Shown: one piece after another, positions 17,121-43,676 of the stretch
Layout: each line of letters starts with the position of its first letter
Position numbering within the stretch: the stretch's first letter is position 1
NCBI GenBank assembly: GCA_023957315.1
Contig: JAMLHE010000004.1
Location: 186,001 to 250,000, forward strand
From: Candidatus Kapaibacterium sp.
GTDB taxonomy: Bacteria; Bacteroidota; Ignavibacteria; Kapaibacteriales; UBA2268
Direction of reading: 5' to 3'
DNA length: 64,000 nt
The notes under the pieces: model-generated
Told to the model about the DNA's origin: nothing
Databases searched by the model: none
What the model saw: only the letters and a program-made list of their open reading frames with translations
Translations under genes and position numbers: made by a program

Positions 17121-18239
17121 TCATTTATTGACAAGTTTTTCAATCACTTTTCCGCCCAGAGCCGTTACATAATGTTCACGCTGAACAACTTGGGTATGCC
17201 CTAACAATTCGGCTACAATATGCGGAGCTATGCCAACCTCTTTGATTAGATGATTCTCTCGCCAAGCTCGAATCGGGTGGAAGCCCTTTTCCACCTCAAT
17301 ACCTAATACTTTTTTGGCAGTTTTCAAATGTTCATGCGGATGCACACTCGCAATCCATGGAAACATCTTTCCCGTCGTTTTATCCATACAAGTGTCTCTA
17401 ATTCCCTCTACGATGTCAAATAACTCTGGAAAAATTGACATAGGGAATTCCCGTGACATTATTTTCATATTGGCAGTACCTTTGCCATGGATTGTAATAA
17501 TGTCGTTATTTATATCTTTATTAAAGAAACGAAGGATTCTATAAGTCTTACGCCTGTTGTGGCGTGATAGCGAACCAAATAGTACATGTCATACTTCTGC
17601 TTTTGCCTTGAAATAATCTATTATCGCTAAAACGTGCTCTGTCGTGTAACTAATCTTTTTCGATTTTACCACTTCCGGGATGCTATCCAACAACACCGGA
17701 TTATATTTAATCATTCCCCTGCTATGAGCATATTTGAAAATCCTTGATAAATTGCTTGTTAGCTTGCGAATGTAATTGGGATGATATTGCCGTTTTATAT
17801 CTGCTAATTTATTCTCAATATGATTCCGGATTGCATCAATATCATCCAAATAGAAATCTGAATCCGAAAAGAAGTATTTGAGAGTTCTATCGGTCAAGTA
17901 TTTGGTAACTTTCGGAAATTCATGATAAAACAGCTTATAATATCTATCTACCAGGTCACTTAACATCACAGGTTCAGTTGAACCGTCGTTCGGTCCGTTA
18001 ACAGTTTTGACTGTAAAATGAGTATGTATTGCTTTTTCAAGCTCGGTTAATGCGTAATCTTTATTGCCGGCACTCCAAGGAATACCCAAACTAAAGCGTA
18101 ATCGAGTTGGATTCAATGCAGATTTGACAATATCCAAGTGTACACGGTCATTGCGACGGTAACAGCAACCAAAGTTGTAGTATATGTGACCCTTGCGAAG
18201 ATACCAACGGTCACTTGTTTTAGTTCTTGGACGTGACAT
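17121..18239 (-). pseudogene. Tyrosine recombinase/integrase, disrupted by two compensating frameshifts
   Basis: Site-specific recombinase of the phage integrase family. The 5' part (18239 down to a TGA at 17591-17589) has the Arm and core-binding regions and ends ...IIDYFKAKAEV. The 3' part (to 17121) has HPIR, ELLGHTQ and the nucleophile tyrosine in REHYV. Between them the conserved box I segment YYLVRYHATTGVRLIESFVSL, containing the catalytic Arg, is only present in the +1 frame (about 17590-17513), after which the original frame resumes at DINNDIITIHGKGT. So one indel near 17591 and a compensating one near 17512 break the gene. Either the gene is dead, the sequence has two errors, or recoding occurs; the last seems least likely. 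It overlaps the preceding repressor-like gene by 20 bp. Confidence 0.85.
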
Positions 18240-22312: not shown

Positions 22313-22730
22313 TGCTTTCTCCTGTATCGGTGATGGAGTGTGTTGTGTTTGGCAGGTTTTGAGGAATCGTAAATACGTTCATCTTGGGTCCCGGATTGGA
22401 GTCGGGGTTTAACCTTTGATTCAATCTTTCAATTTTTCTATCAATGCTCAACTGAATTATCTCTTTATTCAAGAGTATTTTTAGTTGATTAAGCATTATT
22501 TCTACATCAGCAACTTCACTACAGAGGTTGTGATATGCTAAAGCCGAATCGGTTTTCATATTGGAATTTGGTTTCTCAATCTCCGAGATTCCAATCAAAT
22601 CCGACCGTTTGACTTTGTTTAAGGCTTGAATCAATTCGGCGCATTCTTCAATTGCCATATCAAATTGGTTCGCTATGCCATAAAATTGTATTGCTTGTTG
22701 CAATACAGCGATTTGTTTTTCATTCATCAT
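22305..22730 (-). CDS. MazG-like nucleotide pyrophosphohydrolase
   Basis: 141 residues. All-alpha NTP-PPase signature: EECAEL (E28, E29, E32) and SEVADVEIML (E72, D75), the metal-binding acidic residues of the MazG/dUTPase superfamily. It would hydrolyse an NTP or dNTP to NMP and pyrophosphate. Phage MazG proteins have been tied to nucleotide-pool or alarmone control, and here it could also clear an unwanted nucleotide if the phage uses modified bases (inference). It overlaps the replication gene by 11 bp. Confidence 0.75.
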   Translation of the reverse strand: MMNEKQIAVLQQAIQFYGIANQFDMAIEECAELIQALNKVKRSDLIGISEIEKPNSNMKTDSALAYHNLCSEVADVEIMLNQLKILLNKEIIQLSIDRKIERLNQRLNPDSNPGPKMNVFTIPQNLPNTTHSITDTGESNV

Positions 22731-23652
22731 TTGCTACTCCGTTTATATTAATTTTTGTCTGGTCTTCCCAGGATGGTGAATCTTTATCGTCGAATCCTGA
22801 TTGCTCTCTTGATGCTTCAATTTGGCTGAAGCTGAGGGCTCGTTTTTTTATTGCAGTAGATACGTTGTTGGTGTGTACGTTAGAAGTGGGTGTAGGCGAA
22901 ATGCCGTTATCAGCAAGCCCTGATTGCGCCCTTGATGCCTCGAGGTCGCTGAGCTTTAGCCCTCGTTTTCCTTTCGCCGTTGGTCCTTTGGGGGATTCGA
23001 TTATTATTTCGTCATTCCAAGATTGATTTCGTAGGTATGTTTCCGGGTTCTTGCGGAACTTTTTATCAGGTGTGCTTTCAACGTATTTCGGAACATGGTC
23101 AAGAAGCTTAGGCAATTCGTTTTCGGGAATCTTCGAGAATAGCTCCATGCTCTTTTCTTTGCCGGTCTTTTTGTCGTATAAATTCCAAAATTGCTCAAAT
23201 AATTCTTTTGCGTGTTGATAATCCGCTGTATTATATTCTTCTTTTATTCTTTCATTCTTATATTCTTTAGTTGTTGTCCTTTGTTTGACTTTTGTTTGTC
23301 CTTTGCTTGACCTTTGTTTGTCCTTTTTTTCTGTTTCAATTTGATAAGTGTCGTAATTTGAAACACTTATAACGGTATATTTGTTTGTCGTTTTTATAGA
23401 AATTTCACCCGTTTTTGATAGACAATTTAAGGCACGCCTAACTTGTTTTACAGTTAAGTTTACATCGTCGGATAACTTTAACAAAGAAGTAATAAAACTC
23501 CCTCTTTTTACAATGACATCGCGCCAAACCTTCTCGGTATGATTCGCAACTAAAACACAGTGAAAGAATACCCTGAAAACATTATTATCGTGATACCATT
23601 GCCACTCTAAAATGCTTCTGTAAATTTTAATCCAACCTATGCTCATTTTCAA
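22720..23652 (-). CDS. Phage replication initiation protein (winged-helix, origin-binding type)
   Basis: 310 residues. The N-terminal winged-helix domain opens with WIKIYRSILEWQWYHDNNVFRVFFH and continues with GSFITSLLKLSDDVNLTVKQVRRAL, a pattern typical of phage replisome organisers. A basic linker (residues about 110-135) is coded by four contiguous 11-bp iterons on the DNA. The middle (FEQFWNLYDKKTGKEKS ... YLRNQSWNDE) resembles the helicase-loader interaction region of such proteins. The C-terminus carries a duplicated motif, LSDLEASRAQSGLAD and FSQIEASREQSGFDD. The layout resembles lambda O, with origin repeats inside the initiator gene. Confidence 0.78.
   Translation of the reverse strand: MKMSIGWIKIYRSILEWQWYHDNNVFRVFFHCVLVANHTEKVWRDVIVKRGSFITSLLKLSDDVNLTVKQVRRALNCLSKTGEISIKTTNKYTVISVSNYDTYQIETEKKDKQRSSKGQTKVKQRTTTKEYKNERIKEEYNTADYQHAKELFEQFWNLYDKKTGKEKSMELFSKIPENELPKLLDHVPKYVESTPDKKFRKNPETYLRNQSWNDEIIIESPKGPTAKGKRGLKLSDLEASRAQSGLADNGISPTPTSNVHTNNVSTAIKKRALSFSQIEASREQSGFDDKDSPSWEDQTKININGVANDE
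23261..23323 (-). repeat. 11-bp iterons within the replication gene
   Basis: On the minus strand, four direct repeats of the GGACAAACAAA type are exactly contiguous at 11-bp spacing (plus-strand positions 23313-23323 and 23291-23301 perfect; 23302-23312 and 23280-23290 degenerate). They are followed by GGACAACAACTAAAGAATA (23261-23279). The same iteron and the same trailing sequence occur in the non-coding array at 31705-32172. This is a candidate replication origin inside the initiator gene. Confidence 0.75.
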
Positions 23653-23972
23653 GCCATTATTTGTGAATCAAGCAGTTTTTTCCATTCCAAAAGTCTTGGA
23701 GACCAAAAATACTCGCCGTCAGTATCAAACAATCTTTGCTCAATACAAAGCGAAACAATACCGTCAAAAGTGTCATTAGGACAGCCCAACGATGCCGCGA
23801 TACCCTCAGTTTTGTCATGCCTTAAATGAGTTTCTTTTGACTCCAACATCATCTCTAACAGGCAATAATAAGTGCCATACCCTTCCATCCGGTATTCAGC
23901 ACGTAACATCAAAATTTTATCATCACTCCGGGCGTATTCATCGTGGGGGAAATAGCGTTTCTCTCCAATCAT
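23649..23972 (-). CDS. DUF4373 (Lin1244/Lin1753-like) domain protein
   Basis: 107 residues. The opening YFPHDEYARSDDKILMLRAEYRMEGYGTYYCLLEMM is the conserved DUF4373 core, often found at the start of phage replication proteins. Here the domain stands alone and overlaps the replication gene by 4 bp, so the two may act as separate subunits of one initiator. It is the second gene of the minus-strand early operon. Confidence 0.8.
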   Translation of the reverse strand: MIGEKRYFPHDEYARSDDKILMLRAEYRMEGYGTYYCLLEMMLESKETHLRHDKTEGIAASLGCPNDTFDGIVSLCIEQRLFDTDGEYFWSPRLLEWKKLLDSQIMA

Positions 23973-23982
23973 GATTTTGCCC

Positions 23983-24336
23983 TTATATTAGATTATTTGA
24001 TTTTGACTTAGATTCATTGTCGAAGTATTTTGCGATACTCATCTCAAGAACATGAGAAACTTTCGGCACGTAATCAGGGTATTTCGCCTGGAGCTCTTCC
24101 AAACTGTCTCTGAACTTCTTAGTGAATGAGAAAAAATTACTCTTTTTCTTATATTTCTTGAAGTCATCTTCTGTAAGCTCCTTCAATCCTTCTGTGGCGA
24201 TTATTTCTACCATTGTAGGAAAAGGTACGCTCGGGAGCTTGTTTATCCGCGTGTCCTCTATCATTTCGAGCAATTTGGTAGGCAATAAATAAGTTGAAGT
24301 TACTTTAGGGATTGTTGTTGTTTCTGAATTTTTCAT
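23983..24336 (-). CDS. Hypothetical early protein
   Basis: 117 residues, Lys-rich and largely helical (KLLEMIEDTRINKLPSVPFPTMVEII, then a charged helix DDFKKYKKKSNFFSFTKKFRD). It is the first gene of the minus-strand early operon, transcribed divergently from the repressor-like gene at 24461. Position and size suggest a Cro-, excisionase- or replication-control-like role, but no HTH signature is certain. Confidence 0.6.
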   Translation of the reverse strand: MKNSETTTIPKVTSTYLLPTKLLEMIEDTRINKLPSVPFPTMVEIIATEGLKELTEDDFKKYKKKSNFFSFTKKFRDSLEELQAKYPDYVPKVSHVLEMSIAKYFDNESKSKSNNLI

Positions 24337-24460
24337 ATATTTGTCCTTATATATTTTGTAAAATAATATAAATAATTTGTTAAATTTCTAAAGCAAATAT
24401 ATAAGTTTTTTATATAATATCCAAGAATAATATTAGTTTTCTATATTTTTTTTAAATAAT
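24337..24460. promoter_or_regulatory. Divergent early/repressor control region with operator-like repeats
   Basis: Very AT-rich 124-bp gap between divergent genes. CTTATATATTT at 24346-24356 recurs inverted as AAATATATAAG at 24395-24405. The latter extends to an 18-nt block (24395-24412, AAATATATAAGTTTTTTA) found exactly inverted at 25194-25211, downstream of the repressor-like gene. These are good candidate binding sites for that protein. Confidence 0.65.
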
Positions 24461-25156
24461 ATGAAAAATAAAATGATTAAAGACAAAAACACGCTCAGCA
24501 AAGAGTTTGGAGAGCGGTTAGAAGACTGGATGAGACCAAATTGGGAAAGGCAGAAAGATTTTGCAACTTACATCACAGAGACTTACGACAAACATTATTC
24601 GCCCGCTACGATTAACAGTTACTGCAAGGGCAGGTCATTTCCCGACCAAGTGTTTCTATACATAATACATGACCTTGGAGCAGACCTCAATGCTATGATT
24701 ACTGGAAAAAATGTCGAACCGACTTACCATTCAAGCTCAATGCCGCATGTCCAACGCTTGAATCGCTGGATTGCCAAGTATTGCGGAACATATGATGATT
24801 TGTTTAACATGCACAAAACTCTAATTGACAGAATGCAATTAGATACGGCGGATATTTTCGCATACGCCTATGGCACACTTTCATATTCTCCTAAGGTATC
24901 GGATTTCTTTAAGGCTATTGGCTGCAATATGCATTGGGTAATGACAGGCACAGGAACTGAGCTTGTATCATCTCAATCTAAAACCGAACCTGGGAAGCCC
25001 CTTGCTTCGAACCCTAATCCAGAAAGCCCCCTTGATTCTGACGCCATAATAGATGCTGCAGCAGACAAGATACTTTCAGACCCTGAACTTTCTGATAAAT
25101 TATCGAAACAAATTTTAGAGAAGCTCGTATCAAATCTGTCGAAAAAGGACAAATGA
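24461..25156 (+). CDS. Phage repressor-like protein with two HTH-like domains
   Basis: 231 residues. It appears to contain two similar helical DNA-binding domains: residues about 10-85 (FATYITETYDKHYSPATINSYCKG, ending DLNAMITGKN) and about 95-170 (YGTLSYSPKVSDFFKAIG, ending NMHWVMTGTGTE). The Trp/Met-x-x-TGxG ending is the same signature as in the small repressors at 18220 and 30374. The tail is a Pro/Ser-rich linker plus a C-terminal helix (LSDKLSKQILEKLVSNLSKK) suited to oligomerisation. It is divergent from the early operon and flanked by shared operator-like repeats, so it is the best candidate for the lysogeny repressor. Confidence 0.65.
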   Translation: MKNKMIKDKNTLSKEFGERLEDWMRPNWERQKDFATYITETYDKHYSPATINSYCKGRSFPDQVFLYIIHDLGADLNAMITGKNVEPTYHSSSMPHVQRLNRWIAKYCGTYDDLFNMHKTLIDRMQLDTADIFAYAYGTLSYSPKVSDFFKAIGCNMHWVMTGTGTELVSSQSKTEPGKPLASNPNPESPLDSDAIIDAAADKILSDPELSDKLSKQILEKLVSNLSKKDK

Positions 25157-25193
25157 GCCGTCAATCTGCTATCTTCTCCTCAGAAGCAAAATG

Positions 25194-25251
25194 TAAAAAA
25201 CTTATATATTTCAAAAAAATATACAAGTAATATATAAATTTCTTATATTTG
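25194..25251 (+). promoter_or_regulatory. Operator-like repeat and Bacteroidetes-type -7 box
   Basis: The exact inverted 18-nt copy of the 24395-24412 block ends at 25211. TATATTTG at 25244-25251 fits the TAnnTTTG -7 element of Bacteroidetes sigma-70 promoters and lies 55 bp upstream of the chosen start of the TPR gene. Control of that gene by the prophage repressor is inferred. Confidence 0.55.
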
Positions 25252-25306
25252 TTTTGTGAATTTCAACAATAAAAATATTAAAAATTTAAATCTACATGGA
25301 AAACTT

Positions 25307-26701
25307 ATGTATGATAAAATCTTAAAATTAAAACTCGCCGTATTGGTATTGATGCTTTCAATAAACCATGATTGCCACAGCAAAGATTACAGCAAAGCGA
25401 TTCAAGAACAGCTTGAATACAACAACTATGACAAAGCCTTCCAGCTTGTCTCAACTCAAAAAAAACAAGCCAAAGCAACCGCAGATACAATCGAGCTTAT
25501 CAAGGCTAATAATTCACAAGGATTGATTTACAAACACATGTTATCGTACGAATTGTCAATTCCCTTTTTCGTTGAGGTTGTTCAATTATCGGAAATAGTA
25601 AATTACTACAAAGGCGAATATTCAGGGCGTATGAATTTAGGCTATTCATATTCTCTTATTGGCAAGTATGATGACGCAATTGAGCATACAATTATAGCCT
25701 ATGATTTAGCTGTCGCAAACCATGATACTTCTGCTATGGCACGTGCTAAAATGGCAATTGGCAACATTAATTATAATATGGATGATTACGAACAGGCTGA
25801 CCGTTATTTTAGTGAAGCTTTCGCTTTAGCTATTGATGATACGGTTTTCAAGGTCAAGTTATTAGTCAATACGTCTGTTAATGCTATTGAATTAGGCGAA
25901 TATGATAAAGCGAGCAACCTGCTTGATATAGCGGAAAGTGCTTGCATATTGCCGATGGACAGGATTGATGTTAAGTTGGCGCAAGGCGAACTTGGGTATA
26001 AAAAGGGCGATATCCAAGTTTCTATATTGAGATTTCAAGAAGCATTGAAACTCGCCAAAACCTTAAAAGACAAAGACAGAGAAGCTATATCGCTTTACGG
26101 TCTCGGTAGAGTACTTATGAATACTGATTTCTACAAATCAGAGTCGTATTTGAAAACTGCCTATTCTATGTTTGAATCAGTTAACAGAGCCCTTGAAATG
26201 GTGAAGGTAGGGGATGCTCTTTTCTCGCTCTATATGGATAATAAAAAATACGACGAAGCAACTGCAACAATGGAGTTGCTGACCGAGATAATCATAAAGC
26301 CTAAAGAGTTGGCGCCTGGAATGTCTATCTTGCTAAATCAAACCGCGAATTTGCATGAAATCAAAATTGAACTTGAAAATTCACTGGCGGAGGAAAAGCT
26401 TCGAACACAATCGAATATGTATATTTCGGCAATTATAATCATTGTGCTTTTGTTCATATTCGCATTCGTTTTCATGTACTATCGGCGTGAAATCAAAGCA
26501 AATTTAAAGCATACTTCAAGTGTTTGCGAATCTCGCAGAAAACTTAAAAAAGACTTGGATCATATCCGGAGCAAATCGAATCAAGTCAAATCCAAGGCAA
26601 TTGAAATCAATGCTTTTGCAGACCTAAAAACCACTCAGCATTTGCCACGAATCAAAAAGAATTCTATCGAAATTCTTCAAATTCTGGACGATAACAGTTA
26701 A
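25307..26701 (+). CDS. TPR-repeat protein with signal peptide and transmembrane anchor
   Basis: 464 residues from MYDKILKLKLAVLVLMLSI, which looks like a signal peptide (through HDCHS); a GTG 51 bp upstream is possible but spoils it. Residues about 30-370 hold tetratricopeptide-type repeats (for example GLIYKHMLSYELSIPFF, GYSYSLIGKYDDAIEH, GNINYNMDDYEQADRYFSEA). One membrane helix follows (MYISAIIIIVLLFIFAFVFMYY), then a cytoplasmic basic/coiled tail. The shape is like Bacteroidota TPR sensor proteins that lack the kinase or HTH part. In a prophage it may be a lysogenic-conversion gene. Function unknown. Confidence 0.75.
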   Translation: MYDKILKLKLAVLVLMLSINHDCHSKDYSKAIQEQLEYNNYDKAFQLVSTQKKQAKATADTIELIKANNSQGLIYKHMLSYELSIPFFVEVVQLSEIVNYYKGEYSGRMNLGYSYSLIGKYDDAIEHTIIAYDLAVANHDTSAMARAKMAIGNINYNMDDYEQADRYFSEAFALAIDDTVFKVKLLVNTSVNAIELGEYDKASNLLDIAESACILPMDRIDVKLAQGELGYKKGDIQVSILRFQEALKLAKTLKDKDREAISLYGLGRVLMNTDFYKSESYLKTAYSMFESVNRALEMVKVGDALFSLYMDNKKYDEATATMELLTEIIIKPKELAPGMSILLNQTANLHEIKIELENSLAEEKLRTQSNMYISAIIIIVLLFIFAFVFMYYRREIKANLKHTSSVCESRRKLKKDLDHIRSKSNQVKSKAIEINAFADLKTTQHLPRIKKNSIEILQILDDNS

Positions 26702-26753
26702 TGTCTGCATTAGCGCATAGTAACTTATAATAATTTATCATTAAGGGGGATTT

Positions 26754-27023
26754 ATGCAATTAAGCTATAACAGCACAAGCAAGAAACTTGAATGGACGCC
26801 CGGAGAGGGTGAAATTCACTTCCAAATCGAATTGAAAGTAAACGACGGAGATTATGCCGTTGTTTATGAAGGTCCGGCTACTGAATATCAATTAGAATTT
26901 CCAAATCCATGCACCGTAAGGGCAAAAGGCAAGGGAAGTGGGACCACCACCGGGCACGATGAATGGCTTCTTATTGAATCTGTTCCATGCTCTACAGACC
27001 CAATCCACTACATGCCGTTATAA
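26754..27023 (+). CDS. Small beta-sandwich-like hypothetical protein
   Basis: 89 residues. The opening LSYNSTSKKLEWTPGEGEIHFQIELKVNDG with EGPATEYQLEF resembles a fibronectin III-like fold. AAGGGGGA before the ATG is a good ribosome-binding site. It is followed by a terminator and sits between the TPR gene and the three-gene accessory operon. No signal peptide. Function unknown; such domains occur in phage structural and moron genes. Confidence 0.65.
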   Translation: MQLSYNSTSKKLEWTPGEGEIHFQIELKVNDGDYAVVYEGPATEYQLEFPNPCTVRAKGKGSGTTTGHDEWLLIESVPCSTDPIHYMPL

Positions 27024-27047
27024 TACACCTTCCATTATAACTCAGAG

Positions 27048-27076
27048 GGCTTGCCATTTTCATTGGCGAGCCTTTG
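27048..27076 (+). terminator. Terminator after the small beta-sandwich gene
   Basis: Stem GGCTTGCCA / TGGCGAGCC (one G-T type pair) with the loop TTTTCAT, followed by TTTG. Apart from this and the promoter at 27147, the 260-bp gap holds nothing I can name. Confidence 0.7.
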
Positions 27077-27146
27077 TTGTTTCATCCCGGCTTGAACTAC
27101 TCAAACGCTATCAATCGAACACCGGAACAGCCAAAAAATATTTTTT

Positions 27147-27174
27147 TTGTTATAACAAATTGGTATTATATTTG
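27147..27174 (+). promoter_or_regulatory. Promoter with overlapping palindrome before the three-gene operon
   Basis: TTGTTATAACAA (27147-27158) is a perfect 12-bp palindrome that overlaps the -33 TTG position. TATATTTG at 27167-27174 fits the TAnnTTTG -7 box. It lies 109 bp upstream of the first gene. A repressor bound at the palindrome would block the promoter. Confidence 0.5.
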
Positions 27175-27282
27175 CAAATCAATATGATGCATTTATTAAA
27201 TCGTTTAAATTATCACATACACTATATAATAATGATTTCGATACGTCCTTAGTTATATTACATATTTATAAATTGAAACATC

Positions 27283-28035
27283 ATGGACCAAATTTGCTAT
27301 AAGAAAAATTTCATAACAGCCGCTATTGCAAGAATTGATTTCCTAAACCCGATTGACGAAATTGACAACAAGTTGCCGAAAGCATTTATAGATTCTTTAA
27401 AAAACAATTTTCCAATTGCCGAATCAAATCCTATCAAAACAGATACATTTGCTATAAGCCACATTGAAACGAAGCAAAGTACCGAAAGCATGATTGAATG
27501 GAAATTTTGGAACAAAGAAAGAAATCGGCTCATTGTTTTGACAAAGTTTTCGCTTGCACTTTCACAAAATTATTATTCAACATTCGAAGAATTCACATAT
27601 GAATTTGAAACCGCCTTAACGTCAATTTGCAGTGTATATAACAACCCAGAAATTAGAAGATTTGGTTTGAGATATGTGAATGAAATTAATATTTCTGAAG
27701 ATAAGCCATTGAAATGGACCAACTATATCAACAAAAATTTAATCGCCACTATTAATTTCCCTAAAGAAAAGGAAAAAATAAGTAGGACTTTCCACAATCT
27801 TATCATGAATTATGATGAATTTGAATTGAAATTTAATTTCGGCATGCACAATGCGGACTACCCCGCTCCAATTAAGCAGAAAAATTTCATATTAGACTTT
27901 GATGCGACACATCACGGCATTTTAACTCGAAACGGTGTTTTGGAATTACTGCCCAAGTTCCATGCTAAAATACAGGATTTATTTGAAGATTCTATTTTAG
28001 ACAAATTGAGGGATAAATATTTGAATCATGACTAA
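27283..28035 (+). CDS. TIGR04255-like family protein, first gene of a three-gene operon
   Basis: 250 residues. The pattern of an N-terminal AIARIDFLNPI segment, a central IRRFGLRYVNEINI, and a late FILDFDATHHGIL matches the TIGR04255 family, whose function is not established. It overlaps the next gene by 8 bp, so the three genes here are translationally coupled. No membrane or signal segments. Together with its own promoter and the terminator at 28827 it forms an independent accessory unit inside the prophage, a layout typical of lysogen-expressed moron or defence genes (inference). Confidence 0.7.
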   Translation: MDQICYKKNFITAAIARIDFLNPIDEIDNKLPKAFIDSLKNNFPIAESNPIKTDTFAISHIETKQSTESMIEWKFWNKERNRLIVLTKFSLALSQNYYSTFEEFTYEFETALTSICSVYNNPEIRRFGLRYVNEINISEDKPLKWTNYINKNLIATINFPKEKEKISRTFHNLIMNYDEFELKFNFGMHNADYPAPIKQKNFILDFDATHHGILTRNGVLELLPKFHAKIQDLFEDSILDKLRDKYLNHD

Positions 28036-28261
28036 TGACCAAGGATACACCAAAAGCTTAGATGATTTTTCAACTATTGATGATGATTCTAAATCTTATA
28101 TTGCAACAATAGTTTCGACAAAACAAAAAGGGGGTATTGATTATGGCGGGAATAAAGAAGCGTGGCTTGAACGAATACCGGCAATTGAAATCGGCGAATA
28201 CGGTTCTGGTAAGCCTGAACGCATCGAAACCATAATAACCTTTAGAGTCAAAGATGATTAA
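28028..28261 (+). CDS. Small hypothetical protein, second gene of the operon
   Basis: 77 residues, acidic, with an N-terminal disordered stretch and a beta-rich C-terminal part. It starts inside the end of the TIGR04255-like gene and overlaps the next gene by 8 bp. Its size and position between two larger partners would suit an antitoxin-like or adaptor role, but no motif supports this directly. Confidence 0.6.
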   Translation: MTNDQGYTKSLDDFSTIDDDSKSYIATIVSTKQKGGIDYGGNKEAWLERIPAIEIGEYGSGKPERIETIITFRVKDD

Positions 28262-28811
28262 AGCCGATGTTAGTAATAAAATTGCAAGACTATGCCAAGG
28301 CGACATCATCAGGGATGTTGAGCTTATTGAAAAAGCTGAAATCCTGGATACCGGGCTTTATATTTCTAAAATCGTTTTCCCATATATTATAGTTCTTACT
28401 CAAGATTGTGATTTAGAACAAGATTATAACAATCGCACTTCCAAAGAAGTAAAAAACCAAGATAAACACATTCTTTCGGTAATAGTTGCCCCTTTGTATA
28501 ACTTGGCGCATGTTTATAATGGAGAGCATCTCTCTGAATTAAAGCTCGTAATGCATAATTTCAACGATAATTCAAAAACTCACAAAGGATTCTTGGAACA
28601 AAACAACAACCCAAGGTACCACTATATGGAATTTGCCCAAAGCGTCCGGATTGTAAATTCCGTGATTGATTTCAAGCATTATTTTACTGTCAATAATGAG
28701 GGATTGAAAGAGAAAAAAGCAAGTAATTTTGTATGCAAAGTGAGCGAACTATACAGGGAGCAAATCTCTTTACGCTTTGCAAACTATTTATCCAGGATAG
28801 GTCTACCATAG
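28254..28811 (+). CDS. Conserved hypothetical protein, third gene of the operon
   Basis: 185 residues. The strongly patterned core VLTQDCDLEQDY, the mid-region RYHYMEF, the segment VIDFKHYFTV and the C-terminal REQISLRFANYLSRIGLP are, as I recall, shared with unannotated proteins of many bacteria. The invariant-looking Cys, Asp and His residues suggest a catalytic or metal site. It ends 16 bp before a bidirectional terminator. Function unknown; it probably works with the TIGR04255-like protein. Confidence 0.65.
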   Translation: MIKADVSNKIARLCQGDIIRDVELIEKAEILDTGLYISKIVFPYIIVLTQDCDLEQDYNNRTSKEVKNQDKHILSVIVAPLYNLAHVYNGEHLSELKLVMHNFNDNSKTHKGFLEQNNNPRYHYMEFAQSVRIVNSVIDFKHYFTVNNEGLKEKKASNFVCKVSELYREQISLRFANYLSRIGLP

Positions 28812-28826
28812 AATTCTGATCTAAAC

Positions 28827-28857
28827 AAAAAGAGCCTGCTATAAACAGGCTCTTTTC
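28827..28857. terminator. Bidirectional terminator between convergent genes
   Basis: AAAAGAGCCTG / CAGGCTCTTTT with a 7-nt loop; A-run on the left and T-run on the right. It separates the plus-strand accessory operon from the minus-strand gene ending at 28874 and can serve both. Confidence 0.92.
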
Positions 28858-28873
28858 TTATATTGGATTTTAC

Positions 28874-29485
28874 TTAGTTGCGATGTAGTATTGCCCGTTT
28901 TCTCAATTCGATTCGCTTCTCAGCGCATAGCGTAATTAAAGCATCTTTCATTTTCAAGAATGCCGGGACGGGAGCCAAAATACAAATATCATCAATCATT
29001 TTATCCGTAAGGTAATAACTATATAGAGATTCTTTTATATCTCCGGAAATTGATGCCAACACTGAGCGTTCGTAAAGGATGTAGATGATGATATCGGGGT
29101 CAAAGGCGATGTAGCAAGTGTAGCTTTTGCCATCCTCGAACTTGCCGTGTTCGACAAATCCCATTTCCGCCAGCCACTTTTGAGTAGATTCGAGTTTCAA
29201 ATCTTTGTTATTCGGTTCTGTGGTTATCGTCACCACTTTTTTAACTTCATCGTAAGAAATCAGCTTTTCGCTTTCTAATTGTTTCACCAATTCTTTTACT
29301 TCCACTTCTTTTAAGTTCGAATAATACATCATATCTCGATAAGAGATTTGATAACTTCCGTCTTTTATTTGTTGAGCTTTCCGGTTCGTCTTTAGCATCA
29401 GAAGGAAAGCACCCGCTTTGAATGCGTGCTTCTTCTTGTCTTTAAAGAAGTATTCCCAGAAACGTATATCAATTTTGTTTTTCAT
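28874..29485 (-). CDS. Hypothetical winged-helix-like protein
   Basis: 203 residues from MKNKIDIRFWEYFF, chosen because AAGGA lies nine bases upstream; an in-frame ATG further upstream would add nine residues. The segments FLLMLKTNRKAQQIKDGSYQISYRDMM and YYSNLKEVEVKELVKQLESEKLISYDEVKKVVTIT look like a wHTH of the RepA_N or DnaD kind. It is followed by a domain of unknown type. It is the last gene of a short minus-strand operon; a replication or regulatory role is possible. Confidence 0.6.
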   Translation of the reverse strand: MKNKIDIRFWEYFFKDKKKHAFKAGAFLLMLKTNRKAQQIKDGSYQISYRDMMYYSNLKEVEVKELVKQLESEKLISYDEVKKVVTITTEPNNKDLKLESTQKWLAEMGFVEHGKFEDGKSYTCYIAFDPDIIIYILYERSVLASISGDIKESLYSYYLTDKMIDDICILAPVPAFLKMKDALITLCAEKRIELRKRAILHRN

Positions 29486-29590
29486 AAATAATTCCTTATT
29501 TTTGTACTTCAATGGTGTTTAGTTGTTTTGGACTCAGCCCCCTGCCAGGGGCTTTTTCCTTTTGTACCTTTTTTGTATGTTGAATGTTTG

Positions 29591-29956
29591 TCATAAGCAA
29601 GAAAGCTCCGTTCTTCTGTCTCTAAATTTTCGCTTTACCGGCGCAATATCAAGCAAACCATCAATCACCTCGACATTTTTATTGGAATAATCGCCTAATA
29701 TTGTCAAATTTCCGATAGTTCTATCCAGCACAATTGTATAGTCAGCTATTTTGTACAAAGTGTCGAGTTCTAATACTAGATTATTCCCTTCCTGCTGTTC
29801 TTTTGCTATTTGAACGAGTATATTTTTGTAGTCTTGCACGAGCTCAATAAGGTCTTTTTTTGACCATTTCATCATATTCTTATGATGCTCGTCCTCAGAG
29901 AGCACGGCAAGGTTTTCAGCTTTTAATAAATTTTGAAGAATTATTTTGGTGTTCAT
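29591..29956 (-). CDS. Hypothetical helical protein
   Basis: 121 residues from MNTKIILQNLLKAENL, with GGAG eight bases upstream. The reading frame extends 49 codons further 5' but through unlikely sequence that overlaps the next gene. The first two thirds are helical, with KWSKKDLIELVQDYKNILVQIAKEQQ suggesting a coiled coil. No recognisable family. Confidence 0.6.
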   Translation of the reverse strand: MNTKIILQNLLKAENLAVLSEDEHHKNMMKWSKKDLIELVQDYKNILVQIAKEQQEGNNLVLELDTLYKIADYTIVLDRTIGNLTILGDYSNKNVEVIDGLLDIAPVKRKFRDRRTELSCL

Positions 29957-29993
29957 TGTTTTTTCTCCGATGTTAAAAATTTTGTTATATTTG

Positions 29994-30242
29994 TTAGTTG
30001 ATTTTGTTAGTTTTATTGTTATGTTCTCTGATAACCAGTTCGAATGTGCGTTTATCGTCCTTGAACATCGCGTGTCCGGCAAGCATGCAGTATTGAGCAG
30101 CAACGCTTAAATGAGGAAGCAGATAGAGTTTTTGCACTTCTTCCATCTTTGTTTTTAAGGCAGAATCAATCGCTAAGGTCGTTCCGCCTCTTGTAGCCGG
30201 AGAAGGTCTCCGAGTCGAGTTTTGATTTTTGTTATTAGACAT
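29994..30242 (-). CDS. Hypothetical small protein opposite a repressor gene
   Basis: 82 residues: a basic, disordered N-terminus (NQNSTRRPSPATRGG) and a helical C-terminal part (LKTKMEEVQKLYLLPHLSVAAQYCMLAG). It is divergent from the Cro/CI-like gene at 30374 across a 130-bp AT-rich control region, so it may be part of a second small switch. No certain DNA-binding motif. Confidence 0.55.
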   Translation of the reverse strand: MSNNKNQNSTRRPSPATRGGTTLAIDSALKTKMEEVQKLYLLPHLSVAAQYCMLAGHAMFKDDKRTFELVIREHNNKTNKIN

Positions 30243-30373
30243 ATGTAAAACCTTTAATAAGTTGATAAAAAATATTGTTTATTATAAATTGTAAATAAAC
30301 ACAGTTCAAATATAACAAAGATTTTATTATAAACAAGTAAAAATTTTATTATTTTATAATTTTTTTGAAAAAA
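30243..30373. promoter_or_regulatory. Second divergent control region with TTTATTATAAA repeats
   Basis: TTTATTATAAA occurs at 30278-30288 and again at 30323-30333, preceded by G in the first case and followed by C in the second, with a degenerate third copy near 30344. Such near-palindromic repeats between divergent genes, one of which codes for a repressor-like protein, are candidate operators. Confidence 0.55.
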
Positions 30374-30730
30374 ATGTTAGATACACCACAAAAGCGTCTT
30401 GAACACTATATAAAAACACAGTATGGTACCAAAGTAGCCTTCGCGAAGGCAATAGGCATCTTACCTACAAGTGTTACTAAGTATGCCGGTACAAAAGCCA
30501 AATCTATTTTCGGGCATGAATACCAAGTCAAATTGAATTCTCTTGGTCTTAATATCGCATGGTATTTGACAGGTCAAGGCGAGATGTTAGAAAGCGAGAA
30601 GGAATCTGAAGTAGTAAAGTTAACTCGATTAGATGAAATGACAATATCCCAGATGAGATCCGTTTTGAATTGGATTGATGCAAATTACGAAACAATGAAA
30701 TCTATTGTTAGCAGTTTAGATGATAAATAA
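30374..30730 (+). CDS. Cro/CI-like repressor
   Basis: 118 residues from MLDTPQKRLEHYI; a TTG nine bases upstream is less likely. HTH region: KVAFAKAIGILPTSVTKYAGTKAKSIFGHEY, then the closing signature LNIAWYLTGQGEML, as in the other two repressor-like proteins of this prophage. The C-terminal helices may dimerise. It is divergent from the gene at 30242 across repeated sites and probably autoregulates. Confidence 0.75.
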   Translation: MLDTPQKRLEHYIKTQYGTKVAFAKAIGILPTSVTKYAGTKAKSIFGHEYQVKLNSLGLNIAWYLTGQGEMLESEKESEVVKLTRLDEMTISQMRSVLNWIDANYETMKSIVSSLDDK

Positions 30731-30754
30731 TTTTGAATATACCTGGAGCTTTAA

Positions 30755-31339
30755 ATGAGAAAGTTTTTGTTAACCTTTGCTATTTTTTTGTTATATTCAC
30801 TTACGATATTCGCCAAGGATGGGCTCGATTACACCTATGTCGATTTTGTAGGTAAAAAGAAAGCGCAAGTCCGTGAAAGCATACTCAAAACCGAGTCACA
30901 AGAGTTGCTTGATACGCTGGATAAGATAATTGAAGGTATCATCCTTGTGAAAAAGCAGGATAAATTCAAAAAGAAAAAACTTAATGCCATACTCAAGGAA
31001 TACCGTGAAAGATTTGAAATAAACAAACTTTACTTTGAGGTAGCCGTTGAAAGTTTGAAAAAAAAACATTTTAATCAAGAGGTGACACGCAGGCTTTTAG
31101 ATAAAGAGCAGAGACGCTTGATACTACCTATTTTAACGATTGAGGATAATTCTACAATCCTTATTACGACACAGAAAGACGTTGAAACATTAATATATAA
31201 AGACCCAAAATACAAGTTAGTTGTGTTTTTATTCTGGGAAATGATAGGTGATGTTAAGACTGAAAGCGTATATGTTAGCGACGTGTCGCCGGATTCAACG
31301 GGTAAATTCGTAGAAACGTTCGGCTACATCGATAATTAA
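30755..31339 (+). CDS. Hypothetical exported protein
   Basis: 194 residues with an N-terminal signal peptide (MRKFLLTFAIFLLYSLTIFA, cleaved near KDG) and a Lys/Glu-rich helical body, then a beta-rich C-terminus. It is 24 bp after the repressor gene on the same strand and followed by a good terminator, so it is probably expressed from the lysogen. A superinfection-exclusion or other envelope role is conceivable but not shown. Confidence 0.65.
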   Translation: MRKFLLTFAIFLLYSLTIFAKDGLDYTYVDFVGKKKAQVRESILKTESQELLDTLDKIIEGIILVKKQDKFKKKKLNAILKEYRERFEINKLYFEVAVESLKKKHFNQEVTRRLLDKEQRRLILPILTIEDNSTILITTQKDVETLIYKDPKYKLVVFLFWEMIGDVKTESVYVSDVSPDSTGKFVETFGYIDN

Positions 31340-31369
31340 TTACAACTCCTCAAAACACAGGTTCTTCCA

Positions 31370-31398
31370 AAGCTACTTATACAGGTAGCTTTTTTTTT
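31370..31398 (+). terminator. Terminator after the exported-protein gene
   Basis: AAGCTAC / GTAGCTT stem with an 8-nt loop followed by eight T residues. Confidence 0.9.
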
Positions 31399-31704
31399 GC
31401 CAAATCCTTGCTTCAAAGAGGGGGTGTCGCGTTTCACGATACCCTTGACCCTTGACCCTTGAATCATTTTATTGCCTTTTGTTCTTGACCTGCTATCGGT
31501 AATACCGATACTATTTTTTTACACAAAAAACACTTAACACTTTAGACACTTTAGAGATGATTTCAGGTAGGCAGTTTGATTTGATTACATCTGTAAAGAT
31601 AGTATGGGACTATCTCGCTTATTTGTACTACAAACAAAAGACAAACAGTATCACCTAACACAACTTGTATTCATCGGCATATCAAGATGTGTGATGTTAA
31701 AAAA

Positions 31705-32172
31705 GGACAAACAAAAAACATTGGAAAATATGAATTTTTTCAAAAAATCGGAAAAAGGACAAACAAAAAACGCTTGATGTAGCTTTTATTCATGCATGAT
31801 TTCAATGTTTTGATGTTTAAAAAGGACAAACAAAGGACAAACAAAAGACAAAGAAAGGGCAAACAAAGGACAAACAAAATAAGCCTGAAAACTCGCTATT
31901 AGCATAGTGTTTCAGGTTTGCACTTAGCAAAAAGGACAAACAAAAAGCGATAAAAATTGAAAATTTGATAGCTATTTTGATTTTTTTGGTGTGGATTTTT
32001 CACAACGCAAGGACAAACAAAATAAGCCTGAAAACTCGCTATTGATAAGTGATTTCAGTTTGTAAAATTTACATTAGGACAAACGAAGGACAAACAAAAA
32101 ACGGCTGAAACTTGGCTATTGGTAGGTGTTTTCAGGTTCGCACCTTGCAAAAAGGACAACAACTAAAGAATA
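31705..32172 (+). repeat. Iteron array with 66-bp hairpin modules; candidate origin or packaging region
   Basis: The gap 31340-32409 has no credible gene. It holds eight perfect GGACAAACAAA copies (starting 31705, 31757, 31824, 31835, 31868, 31934, 32011, 32088), a one-mismatch copy at 32077, and degenerate ones at 31846 and 31857. Copies 31824-31878 are contiguous at 11-bp spacing. From 31868, 32011 and 32088 a 66-bp module runs to the next iteron (31934, 32077, 32154). Each module has an inverted repeat of the CCTGAAA...TTTCAGG type around GCTATT. The array ends GGACAACAACTAAAGAATA, as in the replication gene. Stretches 31399-31700 and 32173-32409 show nothing further I can name. Confidence 0.8.
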
Positions 32173-32409
32173 ATATAATACAAAGAATTAAAGAAATAAG
32201 AAGGGAATTTTTGCTGATGCAAAAAAGTGATTATACTTTTTTCTTATTGGAAATTGTGTTGTTATAAAAACCTTATAAATGCCCCTAATTTCAATTTTTA
32301 CACAAAAGGCGTAAAAACATACCTTTTTAGGAGTAGAAATTCAACCTACCCGACAAAAAATCGGAAATTTATTCAATTTTTGGGCTGTAAAATATGCAAT
32401 TTTCAAACC

Positions 32410-43146: not shown

Positions 43147-43331
43147 GGGTATGGGGTATATATGGGGTATGGATAGGGTATCCATAGGGTATATCAAAAT
43201 ATGGGTATCGAACTATATATATTGTATTAGTATATTATATTATATTAGTTTAATGTATATTATATTAAGGATTACCTATCCATAGGGTATGGATACCCTA
43301 TATATACCCTATCCAAAGTAGCCACAGTGGC
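43147..43331. repeat. Long inverted repeat after the capsid gene
   Basis: Arms rich in GGGTAT (about 43154-43170) and its complement ATACCC (about 43293-43309) could form a large hairpin of about 160 bases around an AT-rich loop. Each arm also contains its own palindromes (GGATAGGGTATCC). GCCACAGTGGC at 43321-43331 is a separate 11-bp palindrome. With the tandem repeat below it fills the 530-bp gap after the capsid gene. Confidence 0.7.
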
Positions 43332-43489
43332 GACGCTTTCCAAAATTAGAAAATGTTGATATTTCAATCTAAAAAATGAAAAAATTCTAATTTTACCGTA
43401 AAATATTTTTAAAATGATGAAAAACGGGTTGGAAAAACTTTAGAAAAAACGAAAAACGATTCAAAAAGTACAATGATTGATGCAAAAAT

Positions 43490-43617
43490 GATGCAAAATT
43501 GATGTTAAAATCATCAAAAACGATGCAAAATTGATGTTAAAATCATCAAAAACGATGCAAAATTGATGTTAAAATCATCAAAAACGATGCAAAATTGATG
43601 CAAAAATCATCAAAAAC
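43490..43617. repeat. Four tandem 32-bp repeats
   Basis: The unit GATGCAAAATT + GATGTTAAAATCATC + AAAAAC occurs at 43490, 43522, 43554 and 43586 (the last with two changes), followed by a partial unit. The middle of each unit is a GATG...CATC inverted repeat. There are no spacers, so it is not a CRISPR. It sits just upstream of the connector gene start and could bind a regulator or terminase. Confidence 0.85.
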
Positions 43618-43676
43618 GATGCAAAAAACATACGAAAAATTGATTTTTAACCTAAAAATTGAGCGAAAAAACGAAT

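Follow-up and report, generated by a model that had tools for sequence, protein, structure and literature searches.

Two origin loci bound by one initiator, one inside the initiator gene and one far from it, have so far been described mainly for Bacillus phage SPP1. Its initiator gp38 (G38P) binds both oriL, which lies within the gp38 gene, and oriR, which is remote and intergenic. These origins carry similar repeats and each has an AT-rich unwinding element, and gp38 bound at oriR is thought to stall replication forks and thereby trigger sigma replication (PMC6316719, PMC3485210). The prophage described here lies in a 64,000-nucleotide stretch of Candidatus Kapaibacterium DNA (hereafter the window) and resembles the published SPP1 layout in having repeats in its initiator gene and a remote non-coding set with an AT-rich element. 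The two loci are ~12-13 kb apart in SPP1 and ~8.5 kb apart in the window prophage. Unlike SPP1, the window element is a prophage beside a tRNA gene with a DnaD-like initiator, and its remote array has spacings in multiples of 11 bp and inverted-repeat spacers.

The in-gene half of this layout has further parallels. As at ori-lambda within the O gene, the initiator gene holds iterons and an AT-rich stretch; lambda, however, has 18-bp iterons (PMC3349717) and a single origin, whereas the iterons of the window prophage are 11 bp long and recur in an additional, remote array. Plasmid initiators of the pSK41-type RepA_N group share with the window an N-domain of the winged-helix kind, DnaD-like domains and origin boxes placed where the middle of rep encodes the linker, and the pSK41 origin sits in a dispensable linker (PMC5703833). 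Unlike the window element, these systems are plasmids, and a remote second array has not been described for them. We consider it likely, with a probability of roughly 0.7, that the array at 31.7-32.2 kb of the window is a second, non-coding origin-like locus that is bound by the prophage's own DnaD-like initiator and that was derived from, or is co-evolving with, the in-gene origin.

Iterons in the replication gene and in a remote non-coding array

An integrase-like region split into two ORFs (17121-18239) lies beside a tRNA-Glu gene and may represent a frameshift or a decayed integrase. No convincing attachment-site direct repeats were found flanking the prophage. In the host part of the window, 5.3 copies of a 69-bp tandem repeat (1584-2009) precede repeats of the heptamer AAACCCC.

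The rep gene (22720-23652, minus strand) encodes a DnaD-like replisome organizer or helicase loader. It matches PHROG 2514 (E 4.8e-30) and PHROG 270 (E 1.1e-20), and the profile match spans the N-domain and the region that follows it. No Pfam domain matched, RepA_N included, and a sequence search against solved structures gave no relevant match. The protein is predicted to comprise a winged-helix domain (approximately residues 16-104), a disordered linker (107-140) and a helical C-terminal part (approximately 141-200). An AlphaFold model built from a nine-sequence alignment has a pLDDT of ~90 in the N-domain and <40 in the linker. The best Foldseek matches to the N-domain were individually weak and were to winged-helix proteins, including 4pql and 4pt7 'Structure of initiator' (plasmid initiator).

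The linker is encoded by the iterons and the tail that follows them. On the minus strand, two exact copies of GGACAAACAAA (23291-23301 and 23313-23323) and two copies with 2 mismatches (23280-23290 and 23302-23312) are all contiguous at 11 bp. Because the element GGACAACAACTAAAGAATA lies directly after the run, we count five units rather than four, the last being GGACAACAACT at 23269-23279, so that the run of five contiguous 11-mers occupies 23269-23323. At a distance of 67 bp ahead of it, the codons of the wing (TTNKYT; 23380-23390, minus strand) contain a single copy with one mismatch, CGACAAACAAA. This wing copy covaries with each phage's own iterons only weakly (p 0.026 among nine related phages, in codons under protein constraint), and we set the covariation aside as evidence given the kinship of the phages and that constraint.

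After the run comes an AT/purine-rich tail (23222-23268, minus strand), a putative DNA unwinding element that shares ACAACAACTAAAGAATA and TATAATACA with the tail of the remote array and that ranks within the least stable 1.7-4.8% of the prophage when stability is taken over 60 bp. Among relatives of this initiator, 11-bp iterons inside the gene are nothing unusual: a run occurs at the matching place (gene offset ~315-358) in 16 of 19 initiators, each with its own version of the motif. The first-pass annotation had likened the in-gene array to the origin in lambda O, and these features likewise suggest an origin of the lambda-O/pSK41 kind.

Eight exact plus-strand copies of GGACAAACAAA lie ~8.5 kb from the in-gene iterons in the non-coding stretch 31705-32098, starting at 31705, 31757, 31824, 31835, 31868, 31934, 32011 and 32088, with near copies at 31846, 31857 and 32077. 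First-order Markov simulations (2000 for each) gave a mean of 0.004 exact copies for the intergenic stretch and 0.001 for the rep gene, with a maximum of 1 in each. Together the two loci hold 10 of the 18 exact copies in the whole 3.55-Mb genome, the remainder being scattered singletons. The motif shared by the replication gene and the non-coding array, as first annotated, is thus borne out, with 2 and 8 exact copies, far above chance.

The remote array begins with a single exact iteron (31705-31715, plus strand, as for all elements of the array), followed by another (31757-31767) placed 67 bp before a run of five contiguous iterons (31824-31878). The same 67-bp step from lone copy to run is found in the rep gene. 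An inverted-repeat spacer, CCTGAAA...TTTCAGG (31884-31916), separates the run from an exact iteron at +66 (31934-31944); a further exact iteron follows at +77 (32011-32021), then a second inverted-repeat spacer (32029-32058), an iteron pair at +66 and +11 (32077-32098) and a third inverted-repeat spacer (32105-32135), the spacers having been predicted by folding. The array ends in a tail (32154-32213) made up of GGACAACAACTAAAGAATA, at 32154, and an AT/purine-rich putative unwinding element. This tail starts 286 bp (26 x 11) after the run's last copy and belongs to the least stable 1.7% of the window prophage. Run and tail are therefore 286 bp apart with inverted repeats between them, whereas in the gene the tail directly follows the run. 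The longest stop-free stretch in the array is 60 codons; an Rfam search of the array returned sub-threshold matches only, and promoter-like matches within it were at chance level.

Contiguity at exactly 11 bp, which the first-pass annotation had ascribed to both places, holds in the gene. In the remote array it applies to one run of five and one adjacent pair; the copies outside these are spaced by 52, 67, 66, 77 and 66 bp. Likewise, binding along one helix face is roughly possible inside a run, with a drift of 17 degrees per 11 bp at 10.5 bp/turn, but would carry over the 66/77-bp gaps only with DNA held at 11 bp/turn. GC skew, proposed earlier as a check, tracks gene direction and turns at neither array.

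A second remote array in another species

We found a remote array with 2 of the 19 initiators compared, those of the window prophage and of a prophage in another species of the genus (genome G001; IMG/VR contig L052), where the array lies 10.7 kb from the rep gene. In a position-weight scan using each phage's own iterons, in which some relatives were represented by partial sequence, the second array scored 48.1 of 53.9 in the window and 36.6 of 53.0 in G001. None of the remaining relatives that have an in-gene run scored above 20.3 outside the gene; these relatives include six phage records that are whole or largely covered. Wider searches gave little more: a three-copy pattern search of 395 genomes of the phylum found the window array only, in 50,697 phage records Blast matched the array only once, over 48 bp, and a search of viral contigs for the 22-bp perfect tandem yielded two contigs, each with two copies but neither with a longer array. 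Two independent remote arrays are known. The earlier description of the remote array as unusual is correct among relatives (2/19), though it did not name the precedent that has been published, SPP1 oriL/oriR.

The two arrays share their geometry. In both phages a lone copy stands 67 bp before five contiguous copies, after which come further copies at steps of the 66/77 type and a tail exactly 286 bp after the run; the 67-bp step also occurs in both rep genes. Elements similar to the first and third inverted-repeat spacers are present in G001, the tail there is in the least stable 0.2% of the examined region, and in both phages the AT-rich tails of the two loci face outward, away from each other. 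The iteron cores are identical at 88/90 positions between the two species (98%) and the spacers at 213/359 (59%), a contrast expected of selected binding sites. At the first two bases of the G001 iteron, the gene has mostly AG and the array CA, so that gene and array agree in the core only.

This comparison bears on the suggestion that the array is what is left of a second rep gene that has decayed. The homologous tail, the similar geometry and the AT-rich, non-coding character of the DNA would be expected of such a remnant. The core/spacer contrast across two species, the constant lengths and the lack of a remaining Rep reading frame argue that the array is conserved rather than decaying, and we regard a remnant as very improbable.

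It also bears on the packaging site put forward in the first-pass annotation, or more broadly on a packaging (pac/cos) or late-gene control site for some other protein. In the window the array borders the late block, with the final gene of the head operon 200-300 bp away. The small terminase gene, however, is ~4.5 kb from the array in the window and ~9 kb in G001, and in G001 unrelated genes lie between the array and the late block. Given also the chance-level promoter matches, and a motif and tail that match those of the initiator gene, a packaging or late-control site finds no support here and is highly unlikely.

Exchange of the DNA-binding domain and a second iteron type

DNA comparisons with two other prophages amount to a natural recombination test. 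Between the window and G001 prophages, identity is 88-91% over the first stretch of the late block, while in the early half three blocks match and no others: 18.6-19.0 kb, rep and the array. The genome of the window (G000) also holds a sister prophage, on contig C3 at ~270-325 kb. Its late block has 76% DNA identity to that of the window prophage, and the integrase, the repressor region and other early genes are common to both. The sister Rep is related to the window Rep in its C-terminal part alone (65% identity), its N-domain being a different one, and the sister prophage contains no ACAAACAAA arrays, either in its rep gene or remotely. The array thus travels with the type-A DNA-binding domain found in the window Rep. 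According to the first-pass annotation, related phages lacking iterons in both places would refute its proposal. The sister prophage does lack them, but since it also lacks this DNA-binding domain, the absence of both arrays strengthens the link between array and initiator. A comparable exchange is known from plasmid pPR9, in which initiator N-domain and origin were swapped together, and the pSK41/pPR9 pair resembles the window and sister prophages in that the two appear to swap as a unit (PMC5703833).

Between its late and early regions, the sister prophage has an accessory block (C3:285-302 kb) in which some genes resemble, by eye, restriction-modification or other defence genes. In the window and G001 prophages, the corresponding interval is taken up by the iteron array and by accessory genes particular to each.

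Unexpectedly, components of a second initiator/iteron system are present in the window prophage as well. An orphan type-B (WH-B) replisome-organizer protein (28874-29512, minus strand) resembles the sister Rep N-domain (38.7% identity), which is itself of type B (PHROG 6251/1701); the orphan has a weak PHROG 1701 match, lacks the C-terminal part and had no match in the viral contigs searched. At 43147-43309, GGGTAT/ATACCC repeats of the WH-B iteron type, mostly 11 bp apart, are arranged symmetrically around an AT-rich core. A 32-bp tandem repeat (43452-43626; 4.5 copies, 97% matches) lies beside these repeats, and a similar 32-bp repeat occurs near the sister prophage's GGGTAT array (L074 4451-4529).

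Elsewhere, type-B initiators (Geobacillus E2 and contig L077) have in-gene iterons resembling ATACCCTATCG/ATACGGTATCC. The sister rep gene has none of this kind and the sister prophage has two non-coding GGGTAT arrays instead (C3:274682-274833 and 301742-301892). On contig G102, a type-B gene in which no clear iterons are seen is accompanied by a non-coding GGGTAT array ~8.7 kb off (C1:51899-51952). In all of these non-coding arrays the repeats are mostly 11 bp apart; those of the window and sister prophages adjoin or surround AT-rich stretches, and such arrays could possibly form a second origin system.

The orphan, encoded 2.2 kb from the GGACAAACAAA array and of the replisome-organizer type, might itself be the protein that the array serves. 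The G001 prophage, however, has the array, and neither the orphan type-B gene nor a GGGTAT array was found there; the sister prophage has such an N-domain but no ACAAACAAA array; and proteins of the same type elsewhere carry GGGTAT/ATACCC-like in-gene iterons. The orphan is therefore a most unlikely ligand.

A broader and quite speculative proposal, which we think less likely than not, is that in phages of this lineage origins leave the initiator gene and become non-coding modules that can be swapped and that match the initiator's DNA-binding domain. The window prophage would then have two such systems, type A (GGACAAACAAA within rep and at 31.7-32.2 kb) and type B (the orphan and 43.15-43.31 kb). 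Lacking the C-terminal loader part, the orphan could interfere with the replication of type-B phages, the sister prophage in the same cell among them. As the cases are few, we treat the type-B system as a lead rather than a result.

A probable second origin-like locus

Several observations support reading the remote array as a second origin-like locus bound by Rep. The same iteron occurs in gene and array far above chance; the array also has the in-gene tail, both tails falling within the least stable DNA; G001 provides an independent second case with the same geometry; and Rep, with its predicted winged-helix domain, is recognisable as a replication protein of phages. The same initiator is most likely the ligand of both arrays, in keeping with the earlier suggestion of a shared protein, and the combination of iterons with an AT-rich tail gives the remote array features of an origin. 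Against this reading, most relatives carry in-gene iterons alone, the array differs from the in-gene origin in the 286 bp with inverted repeats between run and tail, and only two independent arrays are at hand, with the G001 gene and array motifs agreeing in the core only.

A different role would be that of a titration or handcuffing site, at which bound Rep limits the in-gene origin, for copy control or lysogenic silencing, and starts no replication. The many copies with the same cores would suit such a site, but the AT-rich tail and the register are kept in the array, and pure titration needs neither. Lytically growing phages rarely need copy control, which also counts against it. The E. coli site datA binds DnaA and is not known to have an AT-rich tail copied from the origin. 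As a non-coding, origin-distant site that modulates the initiator, datA is nevertheless a likeness that fits titration (PMC5010248). In lambda, cloned iterons (with oop transcription) inhibit initiation at the lambda ori, and the AT-rich part is dispensable for this effect (PMC3349717). We judge titration to be improbable, if less so than packaging, decay or the orphan as ligand.

For the second origin-like locus, the anatomy, the conservation and the linkage to the Rep DNA-binding domain can be read from the sequences compared, and from them we infer Rep binding, unwinding and the replication step that the array serves. After induction, the Rep winged-helix domain would bind the ACAAACAAA cores in gene and array, oligomerise along the 11-bp runs and open the adjoining AT/purine-rich tail, and the C-terminal domain would load the helicase. 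The in-gene locus would be the usual origin and the array an auxiliary one. Alternatively, the array could be an initiator-bound fork barrier that helps the switch from theta to concatemer-forming sigma replication, as proposed for SPP1 oriR.

If this reading is true, the question posed by SPP1 oriR, whether it is a second origin or a fork barrier that triggers concatemers, would become open to comparison outside Bacillus. Phages with and without the array that have late genes in common would form a natural set showing what travels with the initiator's DNA-binding domain.
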